Assembly (NCBI RefSeq): GCF_900447535.1
Contig: NZ_UFXX01000001.1
Span: forward strand, 1,736,001 to 1,800,000
DNA length: 64,000 nucleotides
Direction: 5' to 3'
Source: Dermacoccus nishinomiyaensis
Lineage (GTDB): Bacteria; Actinomycetota; Actinomycetes; Actinomycetales; Dermatophilaceae
Part shown: one piece after another, positions 30,167 to 56,387 of the stretch
How the letters are laid out: each line of letters opens with the position of its first letter
Numbering within the stretch: the stretch's first letter is position 1
Program-made: the position numbers and the translations under genes
The notes under the pieces: generated by a model
The model's database searches: none
Told to the model about the DNA's origin: nothing
The model's input: only the letters and a program-made list of their open reading frames with translations

Positions 30167-33067
30167 ATGACGGCTCGGCTCACGACGTACCAAGCGAAGT
30201 ACTACGCGCACGAGCTGCAGCGCAGTTACGCGAACAATCACGTCGGCAAGCTCGCCGGCCTGCTGTTCGATGCCCAGGTGGAGCCGAAGCCGCACCAGAT
30301 CGACGCTGCTTTGTTCGCGTTGCAGACGCCGTTCCTGCCGGGCGTGATCCTCGCTGATGAGGTGGGTCTTGGCAAGACGATCGAGGCGGGCATCGTCATC
30401 TCGCAGTATTGGGCCGAACGCCGCCGCAGCATCCTGATCGTCGCCCCGTCGAGCCTGCGCCAGCAGTGGCAGCAGGAGCTGTACGAGAAGTTCCTGATCC
30501 CGTCCGCCATCCTCGACCCGAAGTCGAAGGACTCGCTGCTTGACGCTGCGGGCGGTCGCTCGGCGCAGGTGTTGATCTCCTCGTATGAGTTCGCGCTCCG
30601 GCACGAGACGTTGCTGCTGAAGGCCTGGGATCTCGTAGTCGCGGACGAGGCGCACCGGCTGCGCAACTACTGGACGGGTAAGACGAAGGCCGCCGAGGCG
30701 GTGGCGCACATCGTCAAGGGCGCACACAAGACGGTGCTGCTGACGGCGACGCCGCTGCAGAACAAGCTCGAGGAGCTGTACGGGCTGGTCTCGATCTTCG
30801 ACCCGGACTATTTCTATTCCCTTGATGCGTTCCGGGAGCGGTACGTCAAGAACCGAGACCTTGGCGGTGACGACGACCTGGTGGAGCGTGTCGCGACAGT
30901 CTCGAAGCGTACCTTGCGCCGCGAGGCTGACAAGTACATCCACTTCACCAAGCGCCTGCCGCTGACGGTTGAGTTCACCCCGTCGCCCGACGAGGCACGG
31001 CTCTACGACTTGGTAAATGACTACCTGCAGCGCGACGAGCTGTTTGCCTTCGCCGGGAGTCAGCGCCACCTCTCTGCCCTGATCATCCGCAAGCGTCTCG
31101 GCTCGTCGACCTACGCGGTCGCGAGCACGCTGGAGAACATCGCCAACCGTCTGGCCGATGAGGTTGCCGCTGGGCAGCGCCGCGACGGCCGTGGTGGCCT
31201 CGTGGCAGCAGACTTCACTGTCGACGACGAGATCACCAGCGAGGAACTGGAGGAGGCCGACGAGATCGACGGCGCGGGCACAGGTGCCCGGGCGTCGTCG
31301 TTGCCGCTAGACGAGTCGTTGCTGGAGGCGATGCGTGCCGAGGTTGCGGAGCTGCGCGAGTACGCGGCTCTGGCTCGTTCGATCACCGAGAACCAGAAGG
31401 CGGTCAAGCTTGGTGAGGCGCTCGATCTGGGCTTCGAGCGGCTGCGTGAGCTGGGTGCTCCTGAGAAGGCCATCATCTTCACCGACTCGACCAAGACGCA
31501 GGAGTATATCGCGCGCTCGCTGCGGGAGGCCGGTCGCGGCAAGGGACTCGTTCTATTCAACGGTTCGAACAACGGGCCGGAGCAGACCGCGATCCACCAG
31601 GCGTGGCTGGAGAAGAACAGAGACGGCGACCTGATCACCGGCATCGCCGCCGTGGATCGTCGCAAGGCGCTCGTGGACTACTTCCGCACTGAGGGCACGA
31701 TCATGATCGCGACCGAGGCTGCGGCAGAGGGCATCAACCTGCAGTTCTGCTCGATGCTCGTCAACTACGACCTGCCCTGGAACCCGCAGCGGGTCGAGCA
31801 GCGCATTGGCCGTGTGCACCGCTTCGGGCAGAAGCACAACGTCGTCGTCGTGAACTTCTCGAATAAAGGCAACGTCGCCGAGCAGCGCATCCTGGAGTTG
31901 CTGACCAACAAGTTCCAACTGTTCTCCAGCGTCTTTGGCGCCAGCGACGAGGTGCTCGGCGCGATCGAGGACGGGCTGGACTTCGAGAAGACGATCAGCG
32001 ACATCCTCACCCGCTGCAGAACCGCTGACGAACTGGACTCCGCGTTCAAGGAGCTGGAGGCGCAGTACGCGGGCGAGATCTCGCGCGAGATGGCCAGCGC
32101 CAAGGCGAAGGTCTTCGACAACCTCGACCCCCACGTCCAGGATCGCCTCAAGGCCTACGACACGCAGTCCGGCGAGGTGCTCAACAAGTTCGAGCGCTTG
32201 CTGCTCGCGGTAACCCGGCACGAACTCGACCAGCACGCCACCTTCGAGGGCGACGGGCGCACCTTCGTGCTGAACCGGACCCCGGTGAAGGACGCGCCGA
32301 CCGGGCGCTACTTCTTCAAGTCCCAGCCGCTGGAGAACGCCCACCAGTACCGTTACGCGAGCCCGCTGGCCCAGCACGTCGTTGAGACCGCCAAGACCCA
32401 CGACACCCCGGCACGCGAGCTGACGTTCTCTCTCGGCCAGTCGGAGCGTGTGAGCAGCGCGATTCGTGCGCTGGAGGGCACCAGCGGCGAACTCACCGTC
32501 AGCGTTGCGACCTTCCGTATGAGGGCGCGCGACGAGGATGTCTCCGAGTCCTACATGCTGACCGGCGCCCTGACCGATGACGGTCAGTGGCTCGATGAGG
32601 AGTACGTCGCGGACATCCTCGACCTGGCCTGCATCTCGGTTGGAGAGCAGCCCGTGGCGATCGATGCGGCACACTTCACGCCGCACCTTGATGCACGACG
32701 GGCGGAGCTGGAGAAAGAAGTCCAGGGCCGCAACTCCCGCTACTACGACCAGCAGGAGGAACTGCTCTACCGCAACCAGCAGGACCGCAAGTCCGAGCAC
32801 GAGGGTGCCATCCGCGACTACCGCGCCAAGGAGAAGGAAGCCCGTAAGCTCGCCCGGCAGGCCGACGACCCGATGGAGCAGCTGCGGCTCAAGAAGGAGG
32901 CCCGGAAGTGGGAGCAGCGTGCCGAGGAGGCCGACGAGGACTTCCGCGAGACACGCAAGAAGCTCCGGGCTGAGGCGGACAAGTATCTCGAGCTGATCGA
33001 GCAATCGCTGCGCGGAACCCAAGACATCCAACATCTGTTCACAATCCGTTGGAGGATTATCCCGTGA
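30167..33067 (+). CDS. SNF2/RapA-like DEAD-box helicase of a restriction operon
   Basis: A 966-residue superfamily 2 ATPase. Walker A is DEVGLGKT (residues 64-71), motif II is DEAH (160-163), motif III is LLTATPLQN, and the C-terminal helicase half ends with QRIGRVHRFGQ. From about residue 860 a long charged coiled coil follows (EKEARKLARQADDPMEQLRL). This is the layout of SNF2 helicases linked to restriction and DISARM-type systems, which translocate on DNA. A GAGGAAGG ribosome site precedes ATG 30167. Its stop overlaps the methyltransferase start by 4 bases (GTGA), so the genes are coupled. Codon use is less extreme in GC than in flanking genes. Confidence 0.9.
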   Translation: MTARLTTYQAKYYAHELQRSYANNHVGKLAGLLFDAQVEPKPHQIDAALFALQTPFLPGVILADEVGLGKTIEAGIVISQYWAERRRSILIVAPSSLRQQWQQELYEKFLIPSAILDPKSKDSLLDAAGGRSAQVLISSYEFALRHETLLLKAWDLVVADEAHRLRNYWTGKTKAAEAVAHIVKGAHKTVLLTATPLQNKLEELYGLVSIFDPDYFYSLDAFRERYVKNRDLGGDDDLVERVATVSKRTLRREADKYIHFTKRLPLTVEFTPSPDEARLYDLVNDYLQRDELFAFAGSQRHLSALIIRKRLGSSTYAVASTLENIANRLADEVAAGQRRDGRGGLVAADFTVDDEITSEELEEADEIDGAGTGARASSLPLDESLLEAMRAEVAELREYAALARSITENQKAVKLGEALDLGFERLRELGAPEKAIIFTDSTKTQEYIARSLREAGRGKGLVLFNGSNNGPEQTAIHQAWLEKNRDGDLITGIAAVDRRKALVDYFRTEGTIMIATEAAAEGINLQFCSMLVNYDLPWNPQRVEQRIGRVHRFGQKHNVVVVNFSNKGNVAEQRILELLTNKFQLFSSVFGASDEVLGAIEDGLDFEKTISDILTRCRTADELDSAFKELEAQYAGEISREMASAKAKVFDNLDPHVQDRLKAYDTQSGEVLNKFERLLLAVTRHELDQHATFEGDGRTFVLNRTPVKDAPTGRYFFKSQPLENAHQYRYASPLAQHVVETAKTHDTPARELTFSLGQSERVSSAIRALEGTSGELTVSVATFRMRARDEDVSESYMLTGALTDDGQWLDEEYVADILDLACISVGEQPVAIDAAHFTPHLDARRAELEKEVQGRNSRYYDQQEELLYRNQQDRKSEHEGAIRDYRAKEKEARKLARQADDPMEQLRLKKEARKWEQRAEEADEDFRETRKKLRAEADKYLELIEQSLRGTQDIQHLFTIRWRIIP

Positions 33068-35073
33068 CCGACGAGATCTACGAGACGCCTGCCTCGACGC
33101 CGAACTTCAGGACCGAACTGGCGGCGCAGCTGGCCGAGCTGGTCCCCGAGGCCATCGCCGACGGCAAGGTCGATGTCGAGAAGCTCAAGGAATTGCTCGA
33201 CGGCGACGTAGCCGACAGCAACGAACGGTTCGGACTCTTCTGGCCCGGCAAGAAGCGCGCCCTCCGTGCGGCGCAGGAGCCGACCACGGCGACGCTGAAA
33301 CCCGACTTCGACAACTCGAAGGACTGGGACACGACGCAGAACGTCTTCATCGAGGGCGACAACCTCGAAGTGCTCAAGATCCTGCAGAAGCACTACCACG
33401 CGAAGATCAAGCTGATCTATATCGATCCTCCGTACAACACCGGCAAGGACTTCGTCTACCCGGACAACTACAAGGAGGGCCTCGACACCTACCTCGAATG
33501 GACGCGCCAGGTCAACGAGGAAGGCAAGAAGGTCACGACCAACGCCGAGACCGAAGGCCGCTACCACTCCAACTGGCTCAACATGATGTACCCGCGCCTC
33601 AAGCTCGCGCGGAACCTACTCACCGACGACGGCGTCATATTCATTTCGATCGACAACCATGAGCACGACAACCTGCGGAAGCTGTGCAACGAGGTGTTCG
33701 GCGAAGGCAACTTCATCGAATCCATCGCTTGGAACAAGCGGATCCCCAAGAATGATAAGGGCATAGGAAGCATTCACGAATACGTGCTGGTCTATGCGCG
33801 CTCGCTCGCGGATGCCCCGGAATTAACCGTCCGCAAGGATGGTCTTGATGCGATCTATGAACTTCTAAAGCGGCTCAAGGACAAGAAGACGCCCCTGGCG
33901 GAGGCGCAGAAGGAAATCCGTCACCTCTACAAGAAGCAGGGGTACGACCGCGGCATCACGCTCTACAACGCCCTCGATGCGAATTATCGGCTCTGGGGAA
34001 AGATCAATATGAGTTGGCCGAACGCCGATACTTTCGGTCCCCGGTACGACGTGTTTCACCCGGTTACAGGTCGCCCGGTAAAGGTTCCAGACCGTGGCTG
34101 GCGGTGGAAGGAGGACACCTTCAAGGAAGCTGCCGGAATCGTGGATGGCAAGTACACGAGCGTACAGCCGACACACAATGGCGGGTACATCTGCGGACGG
34201 GTCTGGTTCTCCGCCGATGAGAACATGCAGCCGAGCTCGATCAACTACCTCGATGAGGTCGACCGCTTCCTCCTTCGCTCGGTCCTGTCGATGAAGAGCG
34301 ACGGAGGCATCGAAGTCGAGCGGATGTTCGAAGGTAAGAGCTACTTCTCGTACCCGAAGCCAACTGCGCTACTCCGGACTCTGATCTCAGCGGTTCCGTT
34401 GCGTGATGGAGATACAGTCCTGGATTTCTTTTCGGGCTCAGCGACGACTGGGCATGCGGTCATCCAGCTAAATGCTGAGGATGGCGTAAAGCGTCGTCAT
34501 GTGCAGGTGCAGCTCCCCGAGCCAGTCGTTCCGGGAAGTGCGGCCGCGAAGGCAGGATTCTCCGATCTCGCTGAACTCGCCCGCGAACGACTCCGCCGGG
34601 TCGCGGCCGAACTTGGGACATCGGGTGTGGCGCAGGGCATGGACCTCGGTTTCCGTGCGTACACCCTCACCGACACGAACTTCTCGAAGTGGCGGCTCTC
34701 GAGCGATGTCGAGGAGGACGCGTTGCAGCAGCACCTGCTCAGTCTTCGTGACAGTGCGACTGACGATGCTTCGGCCGATGAGCTACTCACTGAGATCCTG
34801 CTCAAGCAGGGTTACTCGCTAACCGAGGCCGTCTCGCCCGACGAGGTTGGTGGCCTGGACGTCTGTCTCGTGCGGGATCGTGACGGTGACATCGCCGTGC
34901 TGGCGTACCTGAATGAGCACGTCAAGCCGACGCTCGAGCAGCTTCGTGCGTTCGTTGACGAGTCTCCGACGCGGATCATCGTGCTTGAGGACGCGTTCCA
35001 GGGCGACGACGAACTCAAGACCAACCTGGCCCAGCTCGCAAAGAGCAAGGGCATTGAGATCTGGACGGCCTGA
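33064..35073 (+). CDS. mod: type III-like site-specific adenine DNA methyltransferase (Mod)
   Basis: A 669-residue beta-class N6-adenine methyltransferase: motif IV DPPYNTG (residues 121-127) precedes the SAM-binding motif I DFFSGSATTG (454-463). The segment between them is the target-recognition region. It modifies host DNA and, as in type III systems, is probably needed for recognition by Res. GTG 33064 is chosen because GGAGG lies 8 bases before it and it overlaps the helicase stop. DNA from about 33690 to 34480 is clearly richer in A/T and rare codons than either end of the gene, which suggests exchange of the recognition domain. Confidence 0.92.
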   Translation: MTDEIYETPASTPNFRTELAAQLAELVPEAIADGKVDVEKLKELLDGDVADSNERFGLFWPGKKRALRAAQEPTTATLKPDFDNSKDWDTTQNVFIEGDNLEVLKILQKHYHAKIKLIYIDPPYNTGKDFVYPDNYKEGLDTYLEWTRQVNEEGKKVTTNAETEGRYHSNWLNMMYPRLKLARNLLTDDGVIFISIDNHEHDNLRKLCNEVFGEGNFIESIAWNKRIPKNDKGIGSIHEYVLVYARSLADAPELTVRKDGLDAIYELLKRLKDKKTPLAEAQKEIRHLYKKQGYDRGITLYNALDANYRLWGKINMSWPNADTFGPRYDVFHPVTGRPVKVPDRGWRWKEDTFKEAAGIVDGKYTSVQPTHNGGYICGRVWFSADENMQPSSINYLDEVDRFLLRSVLSMKSDGGIEVERMFEGKSYFSYPKPTALLRTLISAVPLRDGDTVLDFFSGSATTGHAVIQLNAEDGVKRRHVQVQLPEPVVPGSAAAKAGFSDLAELARERLRRVAAELGTSGVAQGMDLGFRAYTLTDTNFSKWRLSSDVEEDALQQHLLSLRDSATDDASADELLTEILLKQGYSLTEAVSPDEVGGLDVCLVRDRDGDIAVLAYLNEHVKPTLEQLRAFVDESPTRIIVLEDAFQGDDELKTNLAQLAKSKGIEIWTA

Positions 35074-35075
35074 GT

Positions 35076-38072
35076 ATGAAGAACAGCACAGCGAGCGGTT
35101 CAGGATTCCAGTTCGACGCCAGTCAGCCGTATCAGCTGGATGCGATCGCGTCCGTGGTCGACCTGTTCGACGGGCAGCCGAAGGATGCAGAAAAGCTGGT
35201 CACGACCCTGCATGGTGCGGCGGTGCTGCCCGACTCGGATCAGTCGGTGCTTGACATCGACCTGACGCAGGAAGTCGGCGCAGTCGGCAACAGCCTGGTG
35301 CTCGATCGTGACCTGATCCTTGCGAACCTGCAGCGTGTGCAGGATCGCAACGGCCTTGAGGTGGCGTCGGCGCTTGCGGGCGACGCGCTCGACTTCGATA
35401 TCGAGATGGAGACCGGCACGGGTAAGACCTATGTCTACCTGCGCACGATCTTCGACTTGGCCGTCCGCTACAACTTCACGAAGTTCGTGATCCTGGTGCC
35501 GAGCGTGGCGATCCGTGAGGGTGTCAGCACGAGCATCCGGCTCATGCGTGAGCACTTCGAGAGCCTCTACAAGTCGCGGGGCATCACCTTCGATGCCTCC
35601 GTCTATAGCGGCAAGAGCGCTGAGGAGGTGCAGTCGTTCGCGACCTCGACCAACGTGCAGATCCTCATCATGACGATCGACTCGATCCGTGGCAACGCGA
35701 ACACGCGCATCATCCACCAGACGCGCGACAAGCTGAACGGCCTGCGCCCGATCGACTATCTGAAGGCGACCCACCCGGTCGTGATCTTGGACGAGCCGCA
35801 GAACATGGAGTCGCAGCTCTCTCAGTCGGCGGTCGGTGAACTCGACCCCGTCTTCACCCTGCGCTACAGCGCAACGCACAAGAAGCAGCGCAACGTCGTC
35901 TACCGGCTCGACCCGGTCGACGCCCACGATCTCGGTCTGGTGAAGCAGATCGTCGTCGCCGAGGTGGCCCGGCAGGGCGCGGACGCGACGCCGTATATGA
36001 GGCTGGTGGAGGTGCGGCGTGAGCCGTCGTGGTCGGCCCGGCTGGAGCTGTCCTGCCGCAAAGCCGATGGCTCGCTCGAGCGCCGAGTCGTGAGCGTGAA
36101 GCAGCACCAGGAGCTGTCCGATGGCCGCCTGACGAACAACCCGATCTACGAGGGCTGGCGCATCAACGAGATGAGCATCGAGCCCGCCTACGTCGACCTC
36201 ACCACGCACGGCTTCCTCTACGAGGGCGAGAGCATCGGTGCCTCGGCCGGCGCGATCTACAAGGAGATGATCCGCGAGACCGTCCGCGAGCACCTGCGCA
36301 AGGAATCGATGCTGCGCGCCAAGGGCATCAAGGTGCTCAGCCTCTTCTTCGTCGATAAGGTCGCCAGCTACCTGGGCGACGGCACGAACAACGACGACGC
36401 GAGCGGTGACTTCGTGCAGTGGTTCGACGAGGTCTTCATCGAGGAGCGTGCGAAGTCCGCGCGCTACCAGGAGCTGCTGCCGCAGGCGCCGAGTGAACTG
36501 CGCCGGGCGTACTTCTCCCAGATCAAGCGCGGCAAGACAACCACCTTCCAGGACTCGTCCGGCACCACCAAGGCCGATGACGACGCCTACGAACTGATCA
36601 TGCGGCAGAAGGCACGCCTGCTCGACGAGAACGAGCCCGTGCGGTTCATTTTCAGCCACTCTGCCCTGCGCGAGGGCTGGGACAACCCGAACGTCTTTCA
36701 GATCTGCACCCTGCGCGAAATGGGCGCTGAGACCGAGCGTCGCCAGACTCTCGGACGTGGGCTGCGCCTGCCCGTCGCCAAGACCGAGGACGGCTACGCC
36801 CGCGTCGCTGACCGTGGCGTCGCCACGCTGACGGTAGTAGCGAATGAGTCGTACACGAAGTTCGCAGACGCACTCCAGCGCGAATACAAGGACGCCGGGG
36901 TCGAGATCGGCCGGGTGCGCCGGGCCGAGTTCTCGAAGATCCCGCTGCAGGACGAGAACGGTGCGCTCACCGACGACCAGTTCGGCTATCAGCGATCCGT
37001 GCTGGTGTGGGAGCACCTCAAGGACAAGGGCTTCATCGACAAGGACGGCGCAGTTACCTCAAAGTTTCAGCCGAACCAGCTCGGATTCGACCTCGGCCTG
37101 CCCGTCGACTTCGTCTGGGCTGAGTCGATCATCATCGAGCTGATTGAACGCGCCAACATCGGCAAGTACGTCAAGCCGGTCAGCAAGCGCCAGCCGCGCG
37201 TGCTCAATAAGCAGCTCTACTCGACCCCCGAGTTCGAGGAGTTCTGGGAGACGATCAGCCAGAAGACCACCTACCGCGTCCGGGTCGGTCGCGACCAGCT
37301 GATCGAGAACGCCATCCGGGTGATCCGTGAGGAGCCGAAGATCGACGCGCTGCGCATCCAGGTCACCCGCGCCGGAGTCAAGGTGCTGCGAGGCGGCGCC
37401 AAGGGCGAGGAACTCGGCACCCGCTCGGCTGACCTCAAGGGCAGCTACGACCTGCCCGACATCATCACGGAACTTCAGGAGGCGACCTCCCTCACCCGCA
37501 AGACCATCGTCGACATCCTGATCGGCAGCGAGCGGTTGAGTGAGTTCATTGGCAACCCGAACGACTTCATTGCGATGGCCAAGCGTGTCCTCCAGAGTGA
37601 GCTGGCGAAGATCGTGGTTGACGGCATCCAGTACGAGCGGATCGCTGGCTCGGTATACGAGCTGCGTGAGTTGCAGCGAGACGGCGAGGATGAGAAGGAG
37701 CGCTTCCTCGACCAGATGTACAAGGTGCAGCACACCCGAAAGACAGATTTCGACTACGTCGTCTTCGACTCCGATGTGGAGCGCCAGTTCGCGGAGCTAC
37801 TCGACTCCCGTGAAGACATTAAGATGTTCATGAAGCTGCCAGCCAAGTTCAAGATTGATACTCCGGTTGGGCCGTATAATCCAGACTGGGGGATTATCAA
37901 AAAGGAAGGCGACGAAGACCGGATCTATATGATCCGCGAGACGAAGAGCACACTTGACGATTCGAAGCTTCGGCCAAGCGAGCTCGCCAAGATAAAAGCA
38001 GCTAAGCGCCATTTCGAAGCTATCGGTGTCGTGGACTATGCCCGCTCGGCGCCCGGGGCATGGAGGCTGTGA
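35076..38072 (+). CDS. res: type III restriction endonuclease subunit R (Res)
   Basis: A 998-residue translocase/nuclease. Walker A is ETGTGKT (residues 112-118), motif II is LDEPQNMES (from residue 238), and motif VI region is RRQTLGRGLRLPV. A C-terminal PD-ExK nuclease is visible: YNPDWGII near 934-941 and MIRETKST about 13 residues later. It starts two bases after the Mod stop, so helicase, Mod and Res form one operon. Together with Mod it would cut unmodified DNA after ATP-dependent translocation. No disruption is seen. Confidence 0.92.
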   Translation: MKNSTASGSGFQFDASQPYQLDAIASVVDLFDGQPKDAEKLVTTLHGAAVLPDSDQSVLDIDLTQEVGAVGNSLVLDRDLILANLQRVQDRNGLEVASALAGDALDFDIEMETGTGKTYVYLRTIFDLAVRYNFTKFVILVPSVAIREGVSTSIRLMREHFESLYKSRGITFDASVYSGKSAEEVQSFATSTNVQILIMTIDSIRGNANTRIIHQTRDKLNGLRPIDYLKATHPVVILDEPQNMESQLSQSAVGELDPVFTLRYSATHKKQRNVVYRLDPVDAHDLGLVKQIVVAEVARQGADATPYMRLVEVRREPSWSARLELSCRKADGSLERRVVSVKQHQELSDGRLTNNPIYEGWRINEMSIEPAYVDLTTHGFLYEGESIGASAGAIYKEMIRETVREHLRKESMLRAKGIKVLSLFFVDKVASYLGDGTNNDDASGDFVQWFDEVFIEERAKSARYQELLPQAPSELRRAYFSQIKRGKTTTFQDSSGTTKADDDAYELIMRQKARLLDENEPVRFIFSHSALREGWDNPNVFQICTLREMGAETERRQTLGRGLRLPVAKTEDGYARVADRGVATLTVVANESYTKFADALQREYKDAGVEIGRVRRAEFSKIPLQDENGALTDDQFGYQRSVLVWEHLKDKGFIDKDGAVTSKFQPNQLGFDLGLPVDFVWAESIIIELIERANIGKYVKPVSKRQPRVLNKQLYSTPEFEEFWETISQKTTYRVRVGRDQLIENAIRVIREEPKIDALRIQVTRAGVKVLRGGAKGEELGTRSADLKGSYDLPDIITELQEATSLTRKTIVDILIGSERLSEFIGNPNDFIAMAKRVLQSELAKIVVDGIQYERIAGSVYELRELQRDGEDEKERFLDQMYKVQHTRKTDFDYVVFDSDVERQFAELLDSREDIKMFMKLPAKFKIDTPVGPYNPDWGIIKKEGDEDRIYMIRETKSTLDDSKLRPSELAKIKAAKRHFEAIGVVDYARSAPGAWRL

Positions 38073-38088: not shown

Positions 38089-39606
38089 TTAGATGATTCG
38101 TCGGTAAACGGAGCGATCCGGGCCACATTTGGTCCGGTTTACCCCTAATTGAGAGCGCTGGCACCTACCGTTTCCCCCCTGTATGCGGCAGCTCGCCTCG
38201 CGGACGCTGCGGGCCGCAAACGTCGAGCCACTGAGCAGCGCGTAGAGCGTGCGCGCGCAACGCTCGAACTCGCGCCCTTCGCCGGCACCAGTGCGGCATC
38301 GACATCGCCACAACTGCTCCAACTCGCCCGCAGCAATCGCCTTCGCGACTACCTGGCCGCGCTTCGTCAGCACGAACTCACCGCGATAGTGACGCGCGTA
38401 GCCCATCGTCTTCAGCGACTCACGCAGCGCCGTCACCGGCACGACATCCATCTCTCGACGGCTACTGCCGTGCGTCCAGATGCGCAGCGCGTCGACGATC
38501 CTGCCGACAGTGTCAGGCTTCAGGTAGCCCGCTTGCGTCAGCGGCAGCGGGCCCTCCGCGAGCATGCCGATGAGCGTCACCCACGAGCGCAACGCGTCGG
38601 CGCGCTCTGCGTCCGTCGGTTCGACACGCTCCGTGCGAGCCCGCGACACCGAACCGAGCAACACCACCTGCGCGCGCGGCGACGCCCGCCGCAACGTCTG
38701 GCCGAGCATCGGCGACGGATCCACCGCCCCCTCTTCAGCGATCCTCTAAAGAACCTCGTTCTCCTTCGACAGCACGACGATCGCGACGTTCGCCTCGTCG
38801 ACCGAGAAGCGCGCCGGATCCCAGCCCGGCAGCACCCACTCCGCCAACTCCCGTGGCAAGGTGCGCGCCTTGTGCCCCTGGACGAGTTCGTTGTACTGCC
38901 ACGGTCCGCCCGAATCCTCCAACGGGCATGCGTTGCGACCGGCGACGCACTCCGCGAGCGAGCCGTCGGCGTCAGGTGCACCGCTCGTCGCGAGCTCGAA
39001 GATCTTCTCGAGCTTGATCGTGTGCACCCAGTCGTCACCGAAGTCATACACGTAGAACACACGATCGTCGGGAGCGCGCAGCACCTGATCGAGCACGACC
39101 TCGGTCTCGACGCCCGACGCTTCGTCGAGGTCGTCACCCTCCTCGACATCCCACTCACTCGCGAGGTACGGCCCGCCCCAGATGTCCTTCTTCGGTCCGA
39201 GCGTAAAGCGGTGCAGGTGCGCATCCGCCCAGCCGAGCGCCGCCTGGAGGACGTCGTGGAACTGCGCCATCGTGACGTCGCTGCGGACCTCGATGCGGCG
39301 CCAGACGGCCGGCTTCACCTCGTCGACGTCGACACGGACGGTGAGGAGCCGCACGCCATCACGTGCCGGCGGCAACGTCACCTGTGGCCGCGGCGGTGGT
39401 GGTGTGAAGAACCGGCGCGCGATACCTTCCGTCGAGCCTGCGGGCGCGCCCCGGCGGGCATGCGGAACGCCGCACCGGGCATGCCGCCGGCGCCTGACGC
39501 TTGCTGGTCGCCGCCGGCCTGCGGTGGAAGCCCGAGCTCACGGGCGACGTCAGTCCAGTTCTCCTCATCGTTCAGCTGCTCACGAAATGACTGGATGAAC
39601 GCCTCG
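38089..39606 (-). pseudogene. decayed pRiA4b ORF-3-like gene
   Basis: Pieces of one protein lie in order on the minus strand. About 39440-39606 encodes FIQSFREQLNDEENWTDVAR in one frame. 38746-39381 encodes the pRiA4b ORF-3 domain (LLTVRVDVDEVKPAVWRRIE, YVYDFGDDWVHTIKLEKI) in another. The same frame then stops at a TAG (38746-38748) and continues (RIAEEGAVDPSPMLGQTLRR to PLTQAGYLKPDTVGRIVDAL and the LTKRGQVVAKA segment), the usual C-terminal region of this family. The end is abnormal and appears truncated next to the Res gene. So there is one frameshift, one in-frame stop and a lost 3' end. The function of the intact family is unknown. The restriction operon probably landed at its 3' end. Confidence 0.7.
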
Positions 39607-39836: not shown

Positions 39837-39842
39837 TAGGGT
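39837..39842 (+). promoter_or_regulatory. -10 box TAGGGT before macro-SIR2 gene
   Basis: TAGGGT, 7 bases, ATG 39850. It favours ATG 39850 over the GTG at 39841 that overlaps the box. Confidence 0.5.
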
Positions 39843-39849
39843 GACTGAG

Positions 39850-41250
39850 ATGCGCCCCGGTCACGTCTTCCTCGTCCACGGCCACCTGCAGGACGTCACG
39901 TGTGACGCCATCCTGCTTCCGACCGACACCTCCTTCAGTGTGGCGCCGTACTGGGTGGACCTCATCGGCGACCAGCCCCAGCGCCCTGCCGGCTGGCCGC
40001 GCGACGGGCGCGTCTCGCCCGACATCTTCTGGTTCGTCGACGTCACTGACGACAACCGCGTCGCGCTGGACGCCGCCTTGCTCCGTGCCCGCCTGCGCGA
40101 ACGCGTGGCGCAGATCGCGACGGCACTCGCGGGGCGCTCCGTGGTGCGCGGCCGAGCACAACACCTCGTGACACTCCCGTTGATCGGCGCCGGCGGCGGT
40201 GGTCAACCGGCCGGTGCCATGGTCGCCGCAGTGCTCGACGAACTGGCGGCTCTCACCGAACAGCATCCCCTCGACTTCGCCGTCGTCGTCCCCGAACGCC
40301 CGATCTTCGAGGCGCTGCAGCGTCACCGGCGAGCCGGTCACACCGCTTCGCCTGACGACCTCGCAGCCCGCCTCGGGCGTCGCGCGCGCGAGGGAAGCCT
40401 GTCGCTCATGATCGGCGCCGGCGTCAGCATGGGCGCCGGGCTGCCCAGCTGGGACGGGCTGCTGAAATCCGTTGCCGCGACGCTGCCCGACCACGCTCGC
40501 AAGGCGGTCATGAAGACAGGCGAATCCGATGCTGAGGCACCGCAGTTTCGCGATGACTTCTCCGCGCTCTCACCCCTGGATCAGGCGCAGCTCCTCGAGG
40601 CGCTCCTCGGCACCGCACTGGGACGAGAGGTCGTCGCGGCGGCGTCTAACCGCGACAGCAAGGGTCGCCGGCGGCCGGCACTCGGGCACCTGCTACTTGC
40701 CGGGCTTCAGTGCCGCCAGGTCGCGACGACGAACTACGACGACCTGTACGAGACCGCCGTTCGATCCCAGCAGGGCGGCGACATCGCCAAACTGCCCTAC
40801 CAGCGGCCCGTGCACGCGCAACCGTGGATCCTCAAGATGCACGGAGACGTCGAGCACGAGGGCGACATCGTCCTCACGCGATCGTCCTTCGTCGCCTACG
40901 ACGGTCGTCATCGTCCCGCAGGATCACTCTTCCAGAGCATGCTCATGACGAGCCACGTCCTCTTCGTCGGCGTCTCCCTGACCGACGACAACGTCCTCCG
41001 GCTCACCCACGAGGTGGCCCACTATGTCGACGGCGCTCTCAGCGGAAGCGAAACGGCGACGACCCCCGACGCCGCCCTCCTCGGGACGGTGCTGACCCTC
41101 GCCCCCGACGTGCACCGCCGCCGGCTCTGGCAGGGAAGCCTCGAATGGCATGCCGTCGGCGAGGACGACACCCGCGTCCCCGACAACGCGCGACACCTCG
41201 AGATCCTCCTCGACAGCATCGCCATGTGGGCTGTTCCCGAACTCGCCTGA
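39850..41250 (+). CDS. macro-like domain fused to SIR2 domain
   Basis: A 466-residue two-domain protein. Residues 1-155 look like a divergent macro (ADP-ribose-binding) domain: GHLQDVTCDAILLPTD (11-26), a long insert, then TLPLIGAGGGGQPAGAMVAA (108-127). Residues 180-460 form a SIR2 domain of the prokaryotic defence type: LMIGAGVSMGAGLPSW (186-201), ATTNYDD (292-298) with the catalytic Asn, and KMHGD with His331. Such SIR2 domains usually hydrolyse NAD rather than deacetylate proteins. A macro domain next to it could bind ADP-ribose products or signals. The neighbour at 42132 is an ADP-ribosylglycohydrolase, which fits. SIR2 assignment is firm, macro assignment probable. Confidence 0.82.
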   Translation: MRPGHVFLVHGHLQDVTCDAILLPTDTSFSVAPYWVDLIGDQPQRPAGWPRDGRVSPDIFWFVDVTDDNRVALDAALLRARLRERVAQIATALAGRSVVRGRAQHLVTLPLIGAGGGGQPAGAMVAAVLDELAALTEQHPLDFAVVVPERPIFEALQRHRRAGHTASPDDLAARLGRRAREGSLSLMIGAGVSMGAGLPSWDGLLKSVAATLPDHARKAVMKTGESDAEAPQFRDDFSALSPLDQAQLLEALLGTALGREVVAAASNRDSKGRRRPALGHLLLAGLQCRQVATTNYDDLYETAVRSQQGGDIAKLPYQRPVHAQPWILKMHGDVEHEGDIVLTRSSFVAYDGRHRPAGSLFQSMLMTSHVLFVGVSLTDDNVLRLTHEVAHYVDGALSGSETATTPDAALLGTVLTLAPDVHRRRLWQGSLEWHAVGEDDTRVPDNARHLEILLDSIAMWAVPELA

Positions 41251-41264
41251 CTACCGAGACCGCG

Positions 41265-42044
41265 TCACCCCTCCTGCGAGCGCCACATGTCGAAGCGCGC
41301 GATGAGCTGAAGGAAGTCACGGCCGACGGCCTCATAGGTGCGGTTGAGATCGAAGCGATCACCCACGTCAGGGCCGGCCTTCCAGACGTGCCCCGTGGTC
41401 TCGAAGGCGAGGACGGGCGCCGCGTGGTCACTGCCCGGCTGCTTGGCACACGCGAACCAGAAACGCCACTCGCCCATGCCGTTCGGCGAGTCCTTCGACG
41501 CAGCACGTCGATGCTGGTGGATGCTGGGCACCGCATCGAAGGCTGCTTGGCGCACGCCGTCGCCAGAGGCCGAGCTCGAGAAGACCCCGTTGAGCATGCG
41601 CACACCATGACGCTCGAAGGCTCGCGACGCGGTGAGATGAGCAATCGCCCGGTGTGTCAATGACTCCGGCGTAGAACGGGGCACGCTCCGTGGCGAGCCC
41701 AGACGCGTCACCTCTTCGACCCACCGAACGAACTCTCGGGGCTCCCGCGTGAGCACGTCGAGCCAGTTCGCCTTCTGCCCCCACGGATCGAACGGCGCCA
41801 CATGCACACGCCCTTCGTAGTTGCAACGCACCGGAGTGCTCTCGCGGTGCGGATCCCACAAGACGACCTCGTCGTACATCCCGCCGCCCGCATGCATCTC
41901 GAGAATCTGCAGGTGTGGATGGCGGCGGCCGATCTCCGCCATGAAGCGCCAGGCGGCCGCCTGCTTGACGTCGAAACGGATGGCCAGAGACGCATCCCCG
42001 AGCACCTTCTCCGCACGATCATCCATCTGGTTCTCCCCCGGCAT
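41265..42044 (-). CDS. TY-Chap2-like putative peptide chaperone
   Basis: A 259-residue protein. Residues 27-75 (AAAWRFMAEIGRRHPHLQIL followed by EMHAGGGMYDEVVLW) resemble the actinobacterial TY-Chap2-type family, whose N-terminal domain resembles type III secretion chaperones. The later part (ASKDSPNGMGEWRFWFACAK) contains Trp-rich motifs also seen in such proteins. It lies on the opposite strand between the macro-SIR2 and ADP-ribosylglycohydrolase genes and shares the AT-rich divergent promoter region with the latter. Two starts have ribosome sites: 42044 (GGAGG) and 42026 (GGGGGAG). Confidence 0.6.
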   Translation of the reverse strand: MPGENQMDDRAEKVLGDASLAIRFDVKQAAAWRFMAEIGRRHPHLQILEMHAGGGMYDEVVLWDPHRESTPVRCNYEGRVHVAPFDPWGQKANWLDVLTREPREFVRWVEEVTRLGSPRSVPRSTPESLTHRAIAHLTASRAFERHGVRMLNGVFSSSASGDGVRQAAFDAVPSIHQHRRAASKDSPNGMGEWRFWFACAKQPGSDHAAPVLAFETTGHVWKAGPDVGDRFDLNRTYEAVGRDFLQLIARFDMWRSQEG

Positions 42045-42069
42045 GCGTCCTCCACGTTTTTGTGTCCTA

Positions 42070-42098
42070 TTGACATATTAACGCCTACTTACTTATTG
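42070..42098 (+). promoter_or_regulatory. AT-rich divergent promoter region, TTGACA...TTATTG
   Basis: TTGACA at 42070-42075 and TTATTG at 42093-42098 with a 17-base spacer, 34 bases before ATG 42132. The 60 bases around it are unusually AT-rich for this genome. Confidence 0.45.
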
Positions 42099-42131
42099 TC
42101 GAATCGACTCATCAACGTACTGGAGGCACCG

Positions 42132-43871
42132 ATGGCCCGTTCTCACCTCACCACGCCGCAGCGCGACCGAGCGGCAGGCGTCCTCGTCGCACTGGCCTGC
42201 GGCGACGCACTCGGCGTCCCCTACGAGTTCGGCAGCACCCTCACCGACGTACGCCCCGCAATGATCGGCGGCGGCCTCGGACCCTACGCCCCAGGCGAAT
42301 GGAGCGACGACACCCAGATGGCGATCTGTGTCGCCCGCGTGAGCGCGGAGGCCGACGAACTCGATGACGCGGCCCTCACCCGGATCGGGCACGCCTTCAG
42401 CGACTGGCTGAGGACCGGCGCCACCGACGCCGGCAATCAGACCCGCGCAGTGTTGGGAGCGGTGGAGACCGGGCGCGCGAGCAGCGCGCCGGACGAAACC
42501 TCGCATCAGGACTACGTCGACGCGGCTCGTTCCTTCACGCGCACGCACGAACGCGCCGCCGGGAACGGGGCACTGATGCGTAACGGCATCGTCGGGCTGA
42601 CGGCTCTCGACGACCGCGAGCTCACCGCCTCGAACGCCAGGCGGATCGCGGAACTGACGCACGCCGACCCCCTCGTCCTCGACTCGTGCGTCCTCCACGC
42701 CGAGACCATCCGACACGCCGTCATGACGGGCGAGTACGACATCGTGGCCGGCCTCGACCTCCTGCCCGAAGAACGCCGCGACCAGTGGCGCGAATGGCTC
42801 GAGTCAGCCACCCTCGCAGACCCCTCCACGATCGAAGCGAACGGCTCGACGTTCGGCGCGCTGCGCGCCGCGCACGCCGCCATCACGCGGACACGTGTCC
42901 TGCGGTACAGCACGTTCGAGGGTGGCAACCGGCATCACGCCAGCGCCGCCATCGAGGCAGCGGCCAGCGCCGGCCACGACACCGACACCGTCGCTGCCAT
43001 CACGGGCGCCATGGTCGGCGCCCTCTACGGCGTCTCTGCGATTCCTGCCACCTGGCGGCGCCGCATCCACGGTTGGCCCGGAATGCGTGCCCGCGACCTC
43101 ATGACGCTCGCGCTGCGCACTGCAACCCCTTCAGCCGAGACCGAATGGCCCCTCCAGAGCCGGTCGTCCGTGCCGCACGGACGCAGCGAGGTGCCGCTCC
43201 CGTTCGACACCGGGGTGCTTCTCGGATCTCAGTCGCGTCTCCGCGACACCCAGGCCGACGCTGTGGTCTCCCTCTCCCGCATCGGCGTCGAGGACCGGAT
43301 GTTCTCCGACGCCGCGCCCGAGAACCACGTCGAGTTCTGGCTCGTCGACTCTGACGACCGCGCACAACACAACGACCTCGCGGCCACCCTCGAGGACGCC
43401 GCTGACACGCTCGCCGAGCTACGTGCCGAAGGCCACACCGTCCTGCTGCACTGCGTCCACGCTCACCACCGCACGCCCTCCGTCGCCTTGATCTACGGCG
43501 TCAAGCATTGCGGCCTGGGCGTCGACGAGGCCGAACACGCCATCCTGTCGACACTCGACGTGCCCAGCATCAGTGGCTTGCTGTGGGACACGGCCTCCCT
43601 CATCGCCCGGCGCGCCCAGGCGGATCGCCGCAGGGCCCAGGAGATCAGTGGTGAGATCCCACGCGAACCCAAGGGCTGGTACGACGACGAACTGACCTCG
43701 CTCGACGATGTCGACTCGGACCTCTCGCCGGTCTACGTGGCCTCCATGATGGGGAACATCAGCTCTGACGAGTACGCGCTCTGGTTCAACTCGTTGGCGG
43801 CGGAGGCAGCCGCGCGGGAGGACACCACTGCGAATCGGCCCGTCGACGGCCGGGGTTCGGAAAGCCCCTGA
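42132..43871 (+). CDS. ADP-ribosylglycohydrolase fused to CX5R phosphatase domain
   Basis: A 579-residue fusion. Residues 10-330 are an ADP-ribosylglycohydrolase (DraG/ARH) domain with GDALG (24-28), the metal-binding EWSDDTQM (56-63) and GHDTDTVAA (281-289); these Asp/Thr residues bind the two Mg ions, so it should remove ADP-ribose. Residues 355-500 form a dual-specificity-phosphatase-like domain with the P-loop HCVHAHHRTPS, Cys441 and Arg447 in CX5R spacing, and a preceding FWLVDSDDRAQHND segment. GGAGG lies 6 bases before ATG 42132. Paired with the macro-SIR2 gene, it suggests ADP-ribose turnover or 1''-phosphate processing; the link is inferred. Confidence 0.88.
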   Translation: MARSHLTTPQRDRAAGVLVALACGDALGVPYEFGSTLTDVRPAMIGGGLGPYAPGEWSDDTQMAICVARVSAEADELDDAALTRIGHAFSDWLRTGATDAGNQTRAVLGAVETGRASSAPDETSHQDYVDAARSFTRTHERAAGNGALMRNGIVGLTALDDRELTASNARRIAELTHADPLVLDSCVLHAETIRHAVMTGEYDIVAGLDLLPEERRDQWREWLESATLADPSTIEANGSTFGALRAAHAAITRTRVLRYSTFEGGNRHHASAAIEAAASAGHDTDTVAAITGAMVGALYGVSAIPATWRRRIHGWPGMRARDLMTLALRTATPSAETEWPLQSRSSVPHGRSEVPLPFDTGVLLGSQSRLRDTQADAVVSLSRIGVEDRMFSDAAPENHVEFWLVDSDDRAQHNDLAATLEDAADTLAELRAEGHTVLLHCVHAHHRTPSVALIYGVKHCGLGVDEAEHAILSTLDVPSISGLLWDTASLIARRAQADRRRAQEISGEIPREPKGWYDDELTSLDDVDSDLSPVYVASMMGNISSDEYALWFNSLAAEAAAREDTTANRPVDGRGSESP

Positions 43872-43988: not shown

Positions 43989-44264
43989 CTACTCGGCGAG
44001 CGACCCGTACCTCAGCACGTGGTCGGAGAAGCTGCCCGAACACTCGGGCAGGTGCAGTTCGATGAGTTTCGCGAGCGTCAGCACGTAATGGCGCGTGCAG
44101 AAGAGCTGCGCGTTACCACCGCCGGCGTGCTCGGCGAACACGACGTAGTGCGTCGGGGTCTCGGTGCACACGCACTCGTTCCACGTGCAGCGGGTGCTAT
44201 CGCCGTCGTCGAACTCGTCGAACCCGGTGTCGCCCAAGTCGAGTTCGTGAGTCACGTTCGTCAT
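43989..44264 (-). CDS. small Cys/His-rich hypothetical protein
   Basis: A 91-residue protein. CTWNECVCTETPTHYVVFAE and LFCTRHYVLTLAKL give Cys and His spaced as in a treble-clef-like zinc site (C-x4-C-x-C ... C-x2-H). The N-terminus is acidic (ELDLGDTGFDEFDDGD). Its ATG at 44264 overlaps the stop of the upstream gene at 44261 (ATGA), so the two are co-translated. Function unknown. Confidence 0.65.
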   Translation of the reverse strand: MTNVTHELDLGDTGFDEFDDGDSTRCTWNECVCTETPTHYVVFAEHAGGGNAQLFCTRHYVLTLAKLIELHLPECSGSFSDHVLRYGSLAE

Positions 44265-45406
44265 GCCAGCTCCTTCATCGTCGCTTCGACAGCGCCGACG
44301 CCGCGCGCCAACTCGTCACGCGTCAGTTCCTCGTCGGTGTTGAACCAGCGCGCCCACTTCAACCGGAAATCCTGCTCGGCACGCCTGCGCGCGACGCTCG
44401 TGCCGGCCTCTTCGGCGCGGAAGACGAAGCTCGCTCCGTCCGCATCCGTCGACACCGTGACGAACGAATCCTCCACGGGCACAGCGATACCCGACACCAT
44501 GCCTTGTGCGCGCACGGCGATCCACCGGCGAGACGCGGGTACATTGTCCGCGAACTCGTCGGCGACGAACGGCGCCACCTCACCCCATGCGAGCGCCCGC
44601 TCGACGGCGAACGCTGACACCTGACCGCCCCCTTCGGAGTAACCCCACACGTACGCCGAGCCGACACCGCCGTCCGCCGTCGTGAACCACGTCTGCGCCG
44701 ACTCGACGTCGGGCTTTACCGCGAGCCACTTCACGACGATCTGCGATGGATCGTCGTCGGACGTCTCGTGGTACTGGTGCAACAGGCCGTCCTCATCCTG
44801 CGCACGCTTGGCCTCGAGCCAGCCAGCCGCGTCGAACGCGACGATCTCGAACGGCACGAGCGGCTTCGGCGAGAGCCGTGCCACCCACTCGCGAATCGCC
44901 GCAACACTGTCGAACACCGACAGCAGCGCTGTCTGCTCGCCCATCGCGACGACGTCAGCCTCCGCGCGCTCGAGTTGCGAGTCGACGTCGTCGCCCGCCC
45001 ACTCATCGCTACGCGGCTCCGACGCCATGAGCGCATCACGACGCTGCAGCCACGCGAACCATGCGACGAGCGGCTGTGCATCGTCGCCGGTCTCGAACGT
45101 CAGGTCGTCGCGGAACTTGACGACCGCCCCTGCGTCATGGCACACGAACGTCGGCTCGCCGGCCGGTCCGCCGTCGACGGATGCGAGGCACAGCTCGTAC
45201 GTGACGAGTTCGCGCTCCTCGTCGTAGGCATCGAGACGCCACAGCCCCGGCAGCTCCACCGCGTCCGCGTCGTCGTCTTGACTGGTGACGGCGATGAGAT
45301 CCGACGGCGTCACCCGCGCCCACTGCGGCTGCTCACCCTGCGGCCACCAAGCCTGCTGCGGCCCGGCCTCCTGCACCCGACGCGCCTCACCCCACGTCAC
45401 ACTCAC
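44261..45406 (-). CDS. hypothetical protein (381 aa)
   Basis: Not recognised. The product is acidic and Trp-rich, without signal peptide or membrane segments. Notable stretches are WWPQGEQPQWARVTPSDLIA near the start, LVAWFAWLQRRDALMASE in the middle and FRLKWARWFNTDEELTRDEL at the end. GTG 45406 is chosen for the GAGGGG 9 bases upstream; in-frame GTG 45454 is another option. It forms a two-gene operon with the small Cys/His protein and ends the accessory block. Confidence 0.65.
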   Translation of the reverse strand: MSVTWGEARRVQEAGPQQAWWPQGEQPQWARVTPSDLIAVTSQDDDADAVELPGLWRLDAYDEERELVTYELCLASVDGGPAGEPTFVCHDAGAVVKFRDDLTFETGDDAQPLVAWFAWLQRRDALMASEPRSDEWAGDDVDSQLERAEADVVAMGEQTALLSVFDSVAAIREWVARLSPKPLVPFEIVAFDAAGWLEAKRAQDEDGLLHQYHETSDDDPSQIVVKWLAVKPDVESAQTWFTTADGGVGSAYVWGYSEGGGQVSAFAVERALAWGEVAPFVADEFADNVPASRRWIAVRAQGMVSGIAVPVEDSFVTVSTDADGASFVFRAEEAGTSVARRRAEQDFRLKWARWFNTDEELTRDELARGVGAVEATMKELA

Positions 45407-45739
45407 GCCATCCACCCCTCGTCGCTCGATGACCGACTCATTCGGCCCGCTCACAACGTAGCCCCCAGCGGTGACAACCCCCACACCATCGCGATGGAGG
45501 GCTCTTGATCGGGGCGCAGCAGACCTCGTCATCAGCGGCCAGCGCCGAACCGCGAGACACGAACACCCCCGCGCCTCGCCGCGCTCCCGCCGGGCCCCGC
45601 TAGGTGGGCGCGGTAAGTATGAGTTCGGTTGTAAGATCAGCCCCCACAACCCCGATGAAGAGCTGTGGACCGTTGCAGCGCGACGCTCTTGCCTTGAACT
45701 CATGATCCGCCGCGCACTATGAGTTCAGCTTTGAGCCCC
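45407..45739. other. intergenic, with inverted repeat at 45695-45727
   Basis: No gene is supported in these 333 bases. TGAACTCAT (45695-45703) and ATGAGTTCA (45719-45727) form a perfect 9-base inverted repeat with 15-base spacer, just past the stop of the leftward gene at 45740. A third related TATGAGTTC is near 45617. Confidence 0.4.
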
Positions 45740-55673: not shown

Positions 55674-56387
55674 ATGTCTGACGCTGATCGCGAGGTCGCC
55701 CTCGTCGCCTCCGACATGGTGGTGCTCACCCTGCGCGACGACGAACTGCACGTCGCGCTCATCCGGCGGGCCGCCGCGACGGAGCGAGGCAAGTGGGCGC
55801 TGCCGGGCGGTTTCATGCGTCGCGGCGAGTCGGCGGAGCAGGCCGCCTATCGCGAGCTGCGTGAAGAGGTCGGCATCGCGGAGCGCGACGTCGTGCTCGA
55901 GCAGTTGCGCACGTACACCGAGGTCGAGCGCGACCCGCGGCCGGAACGCGTCATCGGCGTCGCGTGGACGGTGTTCGGCGCGCGCCTTCCCGACCTCGAA
56001 GCGGCGTCCGACGCGCTCGAAGCGGTGTGGGTACCGGTCGACGAAGCGCTCGGGATGCCGCTCGCGTTCGACCACCAGCGTATCCTCGCCGACGGCGTCG
56101 AACGCGCCCGCTCCAAACTCGAATACACCTCTGTCGCAACGGCTTTCCTCGACGACGAGTTCACGATGTCGCAGCTTCGCCACGTCTACCAAGCCGTGTG
56201 GGGCGGCTCGCTCGAACCTGCGAACTTCCACCGCAAGGTGTTGAGCGTCGACGGGTTCGTCGAGGAGACGGGCGACAGCCGCGTCGGGCGCGGGCGCCCC
56301 GCCAAGCTCTACCGCCGCGGCAGCGCCCAGACGATCTACCCGCCACTGACCCGCGCGTCGGTGCGCGAGGCGCGGGCGCGCAGCTGA
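55674..56387 (+). CDS. NrtR-like Nudix transcriptional regulator
   Basis: A 237-residue protein. Residues 10-145 are a Nudix domain with an intact box (GGFMRRGESAEQ, then YRELREEVGI). Residues 150-225 are the winged-helix part typical of NrtR: FTMSQLRHVYQAVWGGSLEP, NFHRKVLSVDGFVEETG and GRGRPAKLYR. NrtR proteins repress NAD-salvage or related genes and sense ADP-ribose. The conserved Nudix residues mean this one could also hydrolyse its ligand. Starts after a TAGACT leaderless promoter. Confidence 0.88.
   Translation: MSDADREVALVASDMVVLTLRDDELHVALIRRAAATERGKWALPGGFMRRGESAEQAAYRELREEVGIAERDVVLEQLRTYTEVERDPRPERVIGVAWTVFGARLPDLEAASDALEAVWVPVDEALGMPLAFDHQRILADGVERARSKLEYTSVATAFLDDEFTMSQLRHVYQAVWGGSLEPANFHRKVLSVDGFVEETGDSRVGRGRPAKLYRRGSAQTIYPPLTRASVREARARS

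Follow-up and report, generated by a model that had tools for sequence, protein, structure and literature searches.

A widespread 'ARG-centric' host system, built around ADP-ribosylglycohydrolases (ARGs), is predicted to undo phage ADP-ribosylation and comprises, besides the ARG, a rhodanese-type phosphatase, TY-Chap1/2/3 proteins, Nudix or WYL repressors and ARPP (Iyer et al., 2022; PMC9503650, section 3.8). The predicted-chaperone slot of these systems is filled by TY-Chap1/2/3, SseB or vWA, a Nudix or WYL repressor is present in just over 42% of them, and the ARGs were selected as lacking coupled ADP-ribosyltransferases or sirtuins (PMC9503650). The open literature that we searched reports no experimental test of an ARG-centric response to phage ADP-ribosyltransferases. 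Here we examine a locus in a 64,000-nucleotide stretch of the Dermacoccus nishinomiyaensis genome (contig NZ_UFXX01000001.1, positions 1,736,001 to 1,800,000; the whole stretch is called the window), where a protein fusing a macro domain to a SIR2 domain (MS) is encoded beside a TY-Chap2 gene and an ARG that carries a C-terminal rhodanese/PTP-superfamily phosphatase (ARG-RP).

The locus resembles the ARG-centric system in its phosphatase-fused ARG with ARG motifs, its TY-Chap2 chaperone and its divergent promoter, and relatives of that system carry NrtR, TY-Chap1 and ARPP-1. It differs in that a sirtuin-type protein, MS, is coupled to the ARG, where the authors' selection admits no coupled ADP-ribosyltransferase or sirtuin, and in that the locus itself, unlike some ARG-centric systems, holds no NrtR or WYL gene. 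With a probability of roughly one half, we read the cluster as an actinobacterial variant of the ARG-centric anti-phage system to which a macro-SIR2 effector has been added, giving two layers, repair and an NADase fail-safe. An earlier sequence-only reading had suggested that the cluster may form one unreported system; the half formed by ARG-RP and TY-Chap2 was already predicted by Iyer et al. (2022), and the new part is MS. We found no open paper naming a macro-SIR2 fusion in an ARG-centric setting. The linkage of MS narrows the published premise that ARG-centric ARGs have no sirtuin partners.

Linkage of MS to phosphatase-fused ARGs

To assess how often these genes travel together, we surveyed 297 genomes of the order, among which 16 encode MS and 24 a phosphatase-fused ARG (fusion status was assigned by sequence in the fused ARGs and by match range in most unfused ones). 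MS and ARG-RP occur together in seven genomes vs 1.3 expected (p = 6.5e-5), and in six of these seven they lie within 5 kb of each other, a closeness that is significant even when genomic islands are allowed to increase chance proximity 20-fold (p = 1.1e-6) or 50-fold (p = 2.4e-4). The proposal that the three genes form one system, which was to be abandoned if they were found apart in most genomes, survives in part: the strict three-gene set fails, being apart, while MS and ARG-RP form a real linkage group found together far above chance.

Across the genomes of 84,980 species, we detected an MS relative in 149, and the best 80 of these provided 80 MS loci, nearly all actinobacterial. Gene calls in the GC-rich flanks relied on a heuristic of third-codon-position GC content (GC3) that missed MS in seven loci, and the counts use protein-profile searches instead. 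Fifteen distinct actinobacterial loci link MS to an ARG, nine of them from this survey of species' genomes, five from other searches, and the window. The linked ARG carries a CX5R phosphatase in all 15, and MS is linked in none of the approximately 45 genomes that have only unfused ARGs (p = 0.001). Mapped onto a phylogeny of 88 MS proteins, ARG linkage changes state at least nine times, and the association has therefore been gained or lost repeatedly. Once a fixed chromosomal site in the Geodermatophilaceae is set aside, ARG-RP is the commonest neighbour family of MS.

Gene order and strand differ among the linked loci, and NrtR, TY-Chap1 and ARPP-1 recur at them. In a Nocardioides locus (L078), a single strand carries ARPP-1, ARG-RP and MS in that order, with NrtR divergent and a spacing of 48 bp separating MS from ARG-RP; L081 keeps this order but has an additional small gene. 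In Flexivirga (L071), MS lies behind NrtR in the same orientation, both divergent from ARG-RP, and in two further loci (L037 and L038) MS and ARG-RP abut tail to tail. A genome of the same genus as the window (G001) has a damaged or contig-split ARG-RP and no MS, and is uninformative as an empty site.

Several smaller features accompany these loci. At two of the loci that link MS to an ARG (L033:5240-6691 and L034:6481-7824), ARG-RP is followed by a second ADP-ribosylglycohydrolase-like gene, this one without a phosphatase. DUF6308 (PF19827) lies directly 5' of MS in several Promicromonosporaceae-type loci (L028:7797-8471, L089, L090, L098 and L103) and adjoins ARG-RP in Janibacter (L026:12635-13309), and is a possible further partner. 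About 22 genomes of Geodermatophilus, Blastococcus and Modestobacter (L115-L149) hold MS at a conserved chromosomal site with no ARG.

Domain architecture of MS, TY-Chap2 and ARG-RP

The three genes that the sequence-only reading had named, as macro-SIR2, TY-Chap2-like and ARH-phosphatase, were confirmed at the positions it gave, each with support well in excess of chance, by hidden Markov models, folds and motifs (Table 1). MS matches SIR2_2 (PF13289, 4.6e-21) in Pfam, and its AlphaFold model, built from 50 sequences, has a mean pLDDT of 91.5. Structural Z scores of the SIR2 part are 23.1 to BcThsA, 22 to KomC and 21-22 to DSR2, vs about 13 to classical sirtuins. N298 and H334 are invariant across 50 relatives, and H334 aligns with the catalytic H146 of KomC. 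By sequence and modelled fold, the domain thus groups with the defence NADases ThsA, KomC and DSR2 and not with the protein-ADP-ribosylating SirTM sirtuins.

The N-terminal third of MS has no Pfam match; a PDB search with the profile of its family hits macroH2A1.1 (9.5e-6), so that by profile the macro domain is nearest the macroH2A type. Its AlphaFold model (pLDDT 88.6) matches macrodomains at Z 13-15. The parts that bind ADP-ribose in macro domains are conserved, namely D22, the adenine-side Asp at the head of the canonical motif, and P113, G116, G120 and G121 of the Gly-rich diphosphate loop; the NAAN motif is lost, with PTD in its place, no Cys is conserved among the 50 relatives, and there is no Zn motif. 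Because an NADase-type SIR2 fold with its His is joined to a macro domain with these features, the simplest reading of MS is an NADase gated by ADP-ribose, and it is from this architecture that we infer NADase activity.

Among described SIR2 NADases, KomC (Kongming), DSR2, Avs5 and SPARSA share with MS the SIR2 fold and the catalytic His but differ in their sensor parts; to our knowledge, none of them has a macro domain. ThsA of Thoeris (SIR2-SLOG) is similar to MS in its SIR2 NADase fold (Z 23 to BcThsA) and in joining an ADP-ribose-type sensor to an effector, but its sensor is a C-terminal SLOG domain where the predicted sensor of MS is an N-terminal macro domain. The macro domains of a further ThsA group (TM-macro ThsA) bind ADP-ribose (ADPR) (PMC11204291). 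ThsB_TIR genes are absent from all 17 MS genomes searched, TIR_2 matches occur in five of the 17 and never near MS, and membership in Thoeris was rejected, the SIR2 fold being present with no TIR partner near MS. Macro domains and sirtuins are also coupled in SirTM/Zn-macro operons and in Mfs1, the latter a single chain with the macro domain first, as in MS; their class M sirtuins ADP-ribosylate GcvH-L-type proteins and their macro domains are Zn-dependent hydrolases (PMC11490716, PMC4518038). MS differs from them in its NADase-type SIR2 and in lacking both a Zn motif and a conserved Cys, and we disfavour its membership in this group, as the Zn loop is absent (the Gly-rich loop is kept, without Cys) and the SIR2 domain is NADase-like.

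ARG-RP matches ADP_ribosyl_GH (PF03747, 3.6e-47) in Pfam, has Tri1, DraG and ARH3 as relatives in the PDB, and retains intact DDT, GNG and DTDTVAA motifs. Its C-terminal region matches DSPc at 4.7e-5 (23.7 bits, under the Pfam cut-off of 33.5) and carries an intact phosphatase signature HC-x5-RT (HCVHAHHRT, CX5R). A start at the first in-frame ATG, at 41802, would overlap TY-Chap2; the likely start is the ATG following CTGGAGG that is given in Table 1, and the end given by the sequence-only reading is right.

Table 1. Features at and around the macro-SIR2/ARG-RP locus, with positions in the window.
Feature	Position	Strand	MS residues	Basis
MS, macro-SIR2 fusion	39841..41250	+		Pfam, AlphaFold fold, family profile, invariant residues
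MS macro domain	39841..40350	+	about 1-170	Profile, fold, alignment
MS SIR2_2 NADase-type domain	40351..41250	+	about 171-469	Pfam, fold, alignment
TY-Chap2, predicted peptide-binding chaperone of the ARG-centric system	41265..42044	-		Pfam PF22553, 1.2e-39
AT-rich divergent promoter in the TY-Chap2/ARG-RP gap	42045..42131			GC content, sigma70-like sites
Operator-like 17-mer TTATTGTCGAATCGACT, putative NrtR site	42093..42109	+		Core TTGTC-N5-GAC
ARG-RP, ADP-ribosylglycohydrolase with C-terminal rhodanese/PTP-superfamily phosphatase	42132..43871	+		Pfam, PDB relatives, motifs
NrtR-type Nudix/winged-helix regulator	55674..56387	+		NUDIX 3.9e-20, NrtR_WHD 3.1e-16; 12 kb downstream

Proposed repair with an NADase fail-safe, and its alternatives

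In the two-layer variant of the ARG-centric system that we favour, a phage ADP-ribosyltransferase would modify host proteins, TY-Chap2 would hold the ADP-ribosylated proteins, and ARG-RP would strip the ADP-ribose and dephosphorylate the product. The macro domain in MS might then recognise the ADP-ribose set free, or a molecule closely derived from it, and switch on the SIR2 domain, which would cleave NAD+ and thereby starve the phage transferase, and phage growth with it, in an abortive infection. In favour of this variant are the NADase-type SIR2 fold with its invariant His, the macro domain's retained ADP-ribose-binding parts, the repeated linkage of MS with phosphatase-fused ARGs and with no unfused ones, the one-strand or tightly adjacent gene arrangements, and the presence of NrtR, TY-Chap1 and ARPP-1 at linked loci. 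A recurrently linked, predicted NADase with a putative ADP-ribose-binding domain would be a plausible output for an ARG-centric response, and a loss of NAD+ would be easily measured. A further version, which we advance only tentatively and would not bet on, is a self-amplifying switch, in which ARG-RP frees ADP-ribose from phage-modified protein, MS fires, and the NADase product is again ADP-ribose, with the phosphatase/NrtR arm setting threshold and reset. If this were true, the phage's modifying enzyme would become the trigger of abortive infection.

A number of observations weigh against the two-layer variant. An ARG lies within 10 kb of MS in only 9 of the 80 MS loci, only 6 of the 24 ARG-RP genomes of the order have MS nearby, and TY-Chap2 is rare (2 of 297 genomes). 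A large Geodermatophilaceae branch holds MS at one syntenic site without an ARG, which suggests that MS is vertically kept there in a free-standing role and can work alone. In the window, TY-Chap2 lies on the opposite strand between MS and ARG-RP, whose end and start are 882 bp apart, and the two are thus not co-transcribed. Moreover, antagonism between MS and the ARG, or mere sharing of an island, would yield the same maps.

The last of these, that MS and ARG-RP/TY-Chap2 act in defence independently and are close only through island clustering, is a doubtful but serious alternative. It agrees with the majority of MS genes standing apart from ARGs, with the window genes not forming one transcription unit, and with the helicases, Schlafen-type and NERD proteins and restriction genes that are also common nearby, but it does not readily account for proximity within 5 kb that exceeds generous island effects, for a linkage limited to phosphatase-fused ARGs, for one-strand runs in which 48 bp separate MS from ARG-RP, for NrtR-led runs, or for the first rank of ARG-RP among MS neighbours outside the fixed Geodermatophilaceae site. 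The sequence-only reading had offered defence or toxin-antidote as functions, and the ADP-ribose-themed conflict genes bear out the general theme; a toxin-antidote pair, in which MS uses its SIR2 domain to ADP-ribosylate a target and the modification is reversed by the MS macro domain, by ARG-RP or by both, in the manner of SirTM/Zn-macro or DarT/DarG, is the weaker part and in our judgement unlikely. There are macro-sirtuin pairs and fusions that act as transferases (SirTM, Mfs1; PMC11490716), PDB entry 8rsn is among the macro matches, ADP-ribosylation is reversed by ARG enzymes, and the linkage of MS to ARG-RP is real. Nevertheless, the SIR2 domain matches NADases and not SirTM, the macro domain, with PTD for NAAN and no conserved Cys, gives no sign of a hydrolase or a Zn-macro domain, and MS would not appear to need an ARG as antidote because so few MS loci have one within 10 kb.

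A more speculative possibility, and one to which we attach very little likelihood, is counter-counter-defence, in which MS removes NAD+ and ARG-RP breaks down the ADPR-PP or ADPR from which a phage NARP1 pathway would rebuild it, the phosphatase thereby serving the NADase rather than protein repair. NARP1 converts ADPR to ADPR-PP (PMC12774641), sugar phosphates are substrates of rhodanese-type phosphatases (PMC9503650), and linkage to MS is confined to phosphatase-bearing ARGs; however, this scheme leaves the TY-Chap proteins and ARPP unexplained, and most ARG-RP loci are without MS.

Promoter, possible regulator and neighbouring genes

The gap between TY-Chap2 and ARG-RP, which had been described as an AT-rich divergent promoter, answers to that description: its 87 bp have a GC content of 46%, within the lowest 0.09% of the window's 87-bp stretches, and contain two sigma70-like promoters facing each other, where shuffled sequence is expected to give 0.2. 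A search for a regulator gene at the window cluster found none. The NrtR encoded farther downstream is an ortholog, 63% identical, of the Flexivirga NrtR that sits divergently beside ARG-RP, and it may be a housekeeping regulator because it is 77% conserved in another genome of the genus. The putative operator TTATTGTCGAATCGACT is the sole match at two or fewer mismatches in the whole genome. Its core, TTGTC-N5-GAC, is common to the ARG promoters of the window, Flexivirga (L071) and G010 (L168); both matches in L071 fall in the ARG/NrtR gap and the single match in L168 falls in the ARG promoter, whereas the window has three matches, including the promoter one, overall no more than chance. On these sequence patterns, control of the ARG-RP promoter by NrtR in trans is plausible. 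Four other ARG/NrtR gaps (L037 5600-5620, L080 17670-17730, L163 7630-7660 and L167 4660-4710) have a different palindrome-like sequence, resembling by eye TTAGCGCA-N-TTGCGCTAA, which the main NrtR branch may use as its operator.

Searches for an origin of MS in phages or plasmids gave no support for one, with one weak match among viral contigs and partial plasmid matches, none covering 80% or more of MS. Pfam gives no match for two overlapping minus-strand open reading frames just 3' of ARG-RP (43989-44264 and 44261-45703), and a search of the other 80 loci gave no relative of the latter. The restriction genes reported near the cluster are indeed present upstream of MS, where a DrmD-like SNF2 helicase and type III Mod and Res occupy 30167-38072 at a GC content of 61-64%, vs about 69% for the window. 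The same helicase/Mod/Res trio lies directly 3' of ARG-RP/TY-Chap1/NrtR in a genome of the same family (L157, 11035 onward), and a related helicase is close to MS in L033 and L081. Between the restriction genes and MS is a PRiA4_ORF3 family gene (38746-39381; PF07929, 2.9e-45), relatives of which occur near the G010 ARG (L168) and in a few MS loci (L104, L111 and L150).

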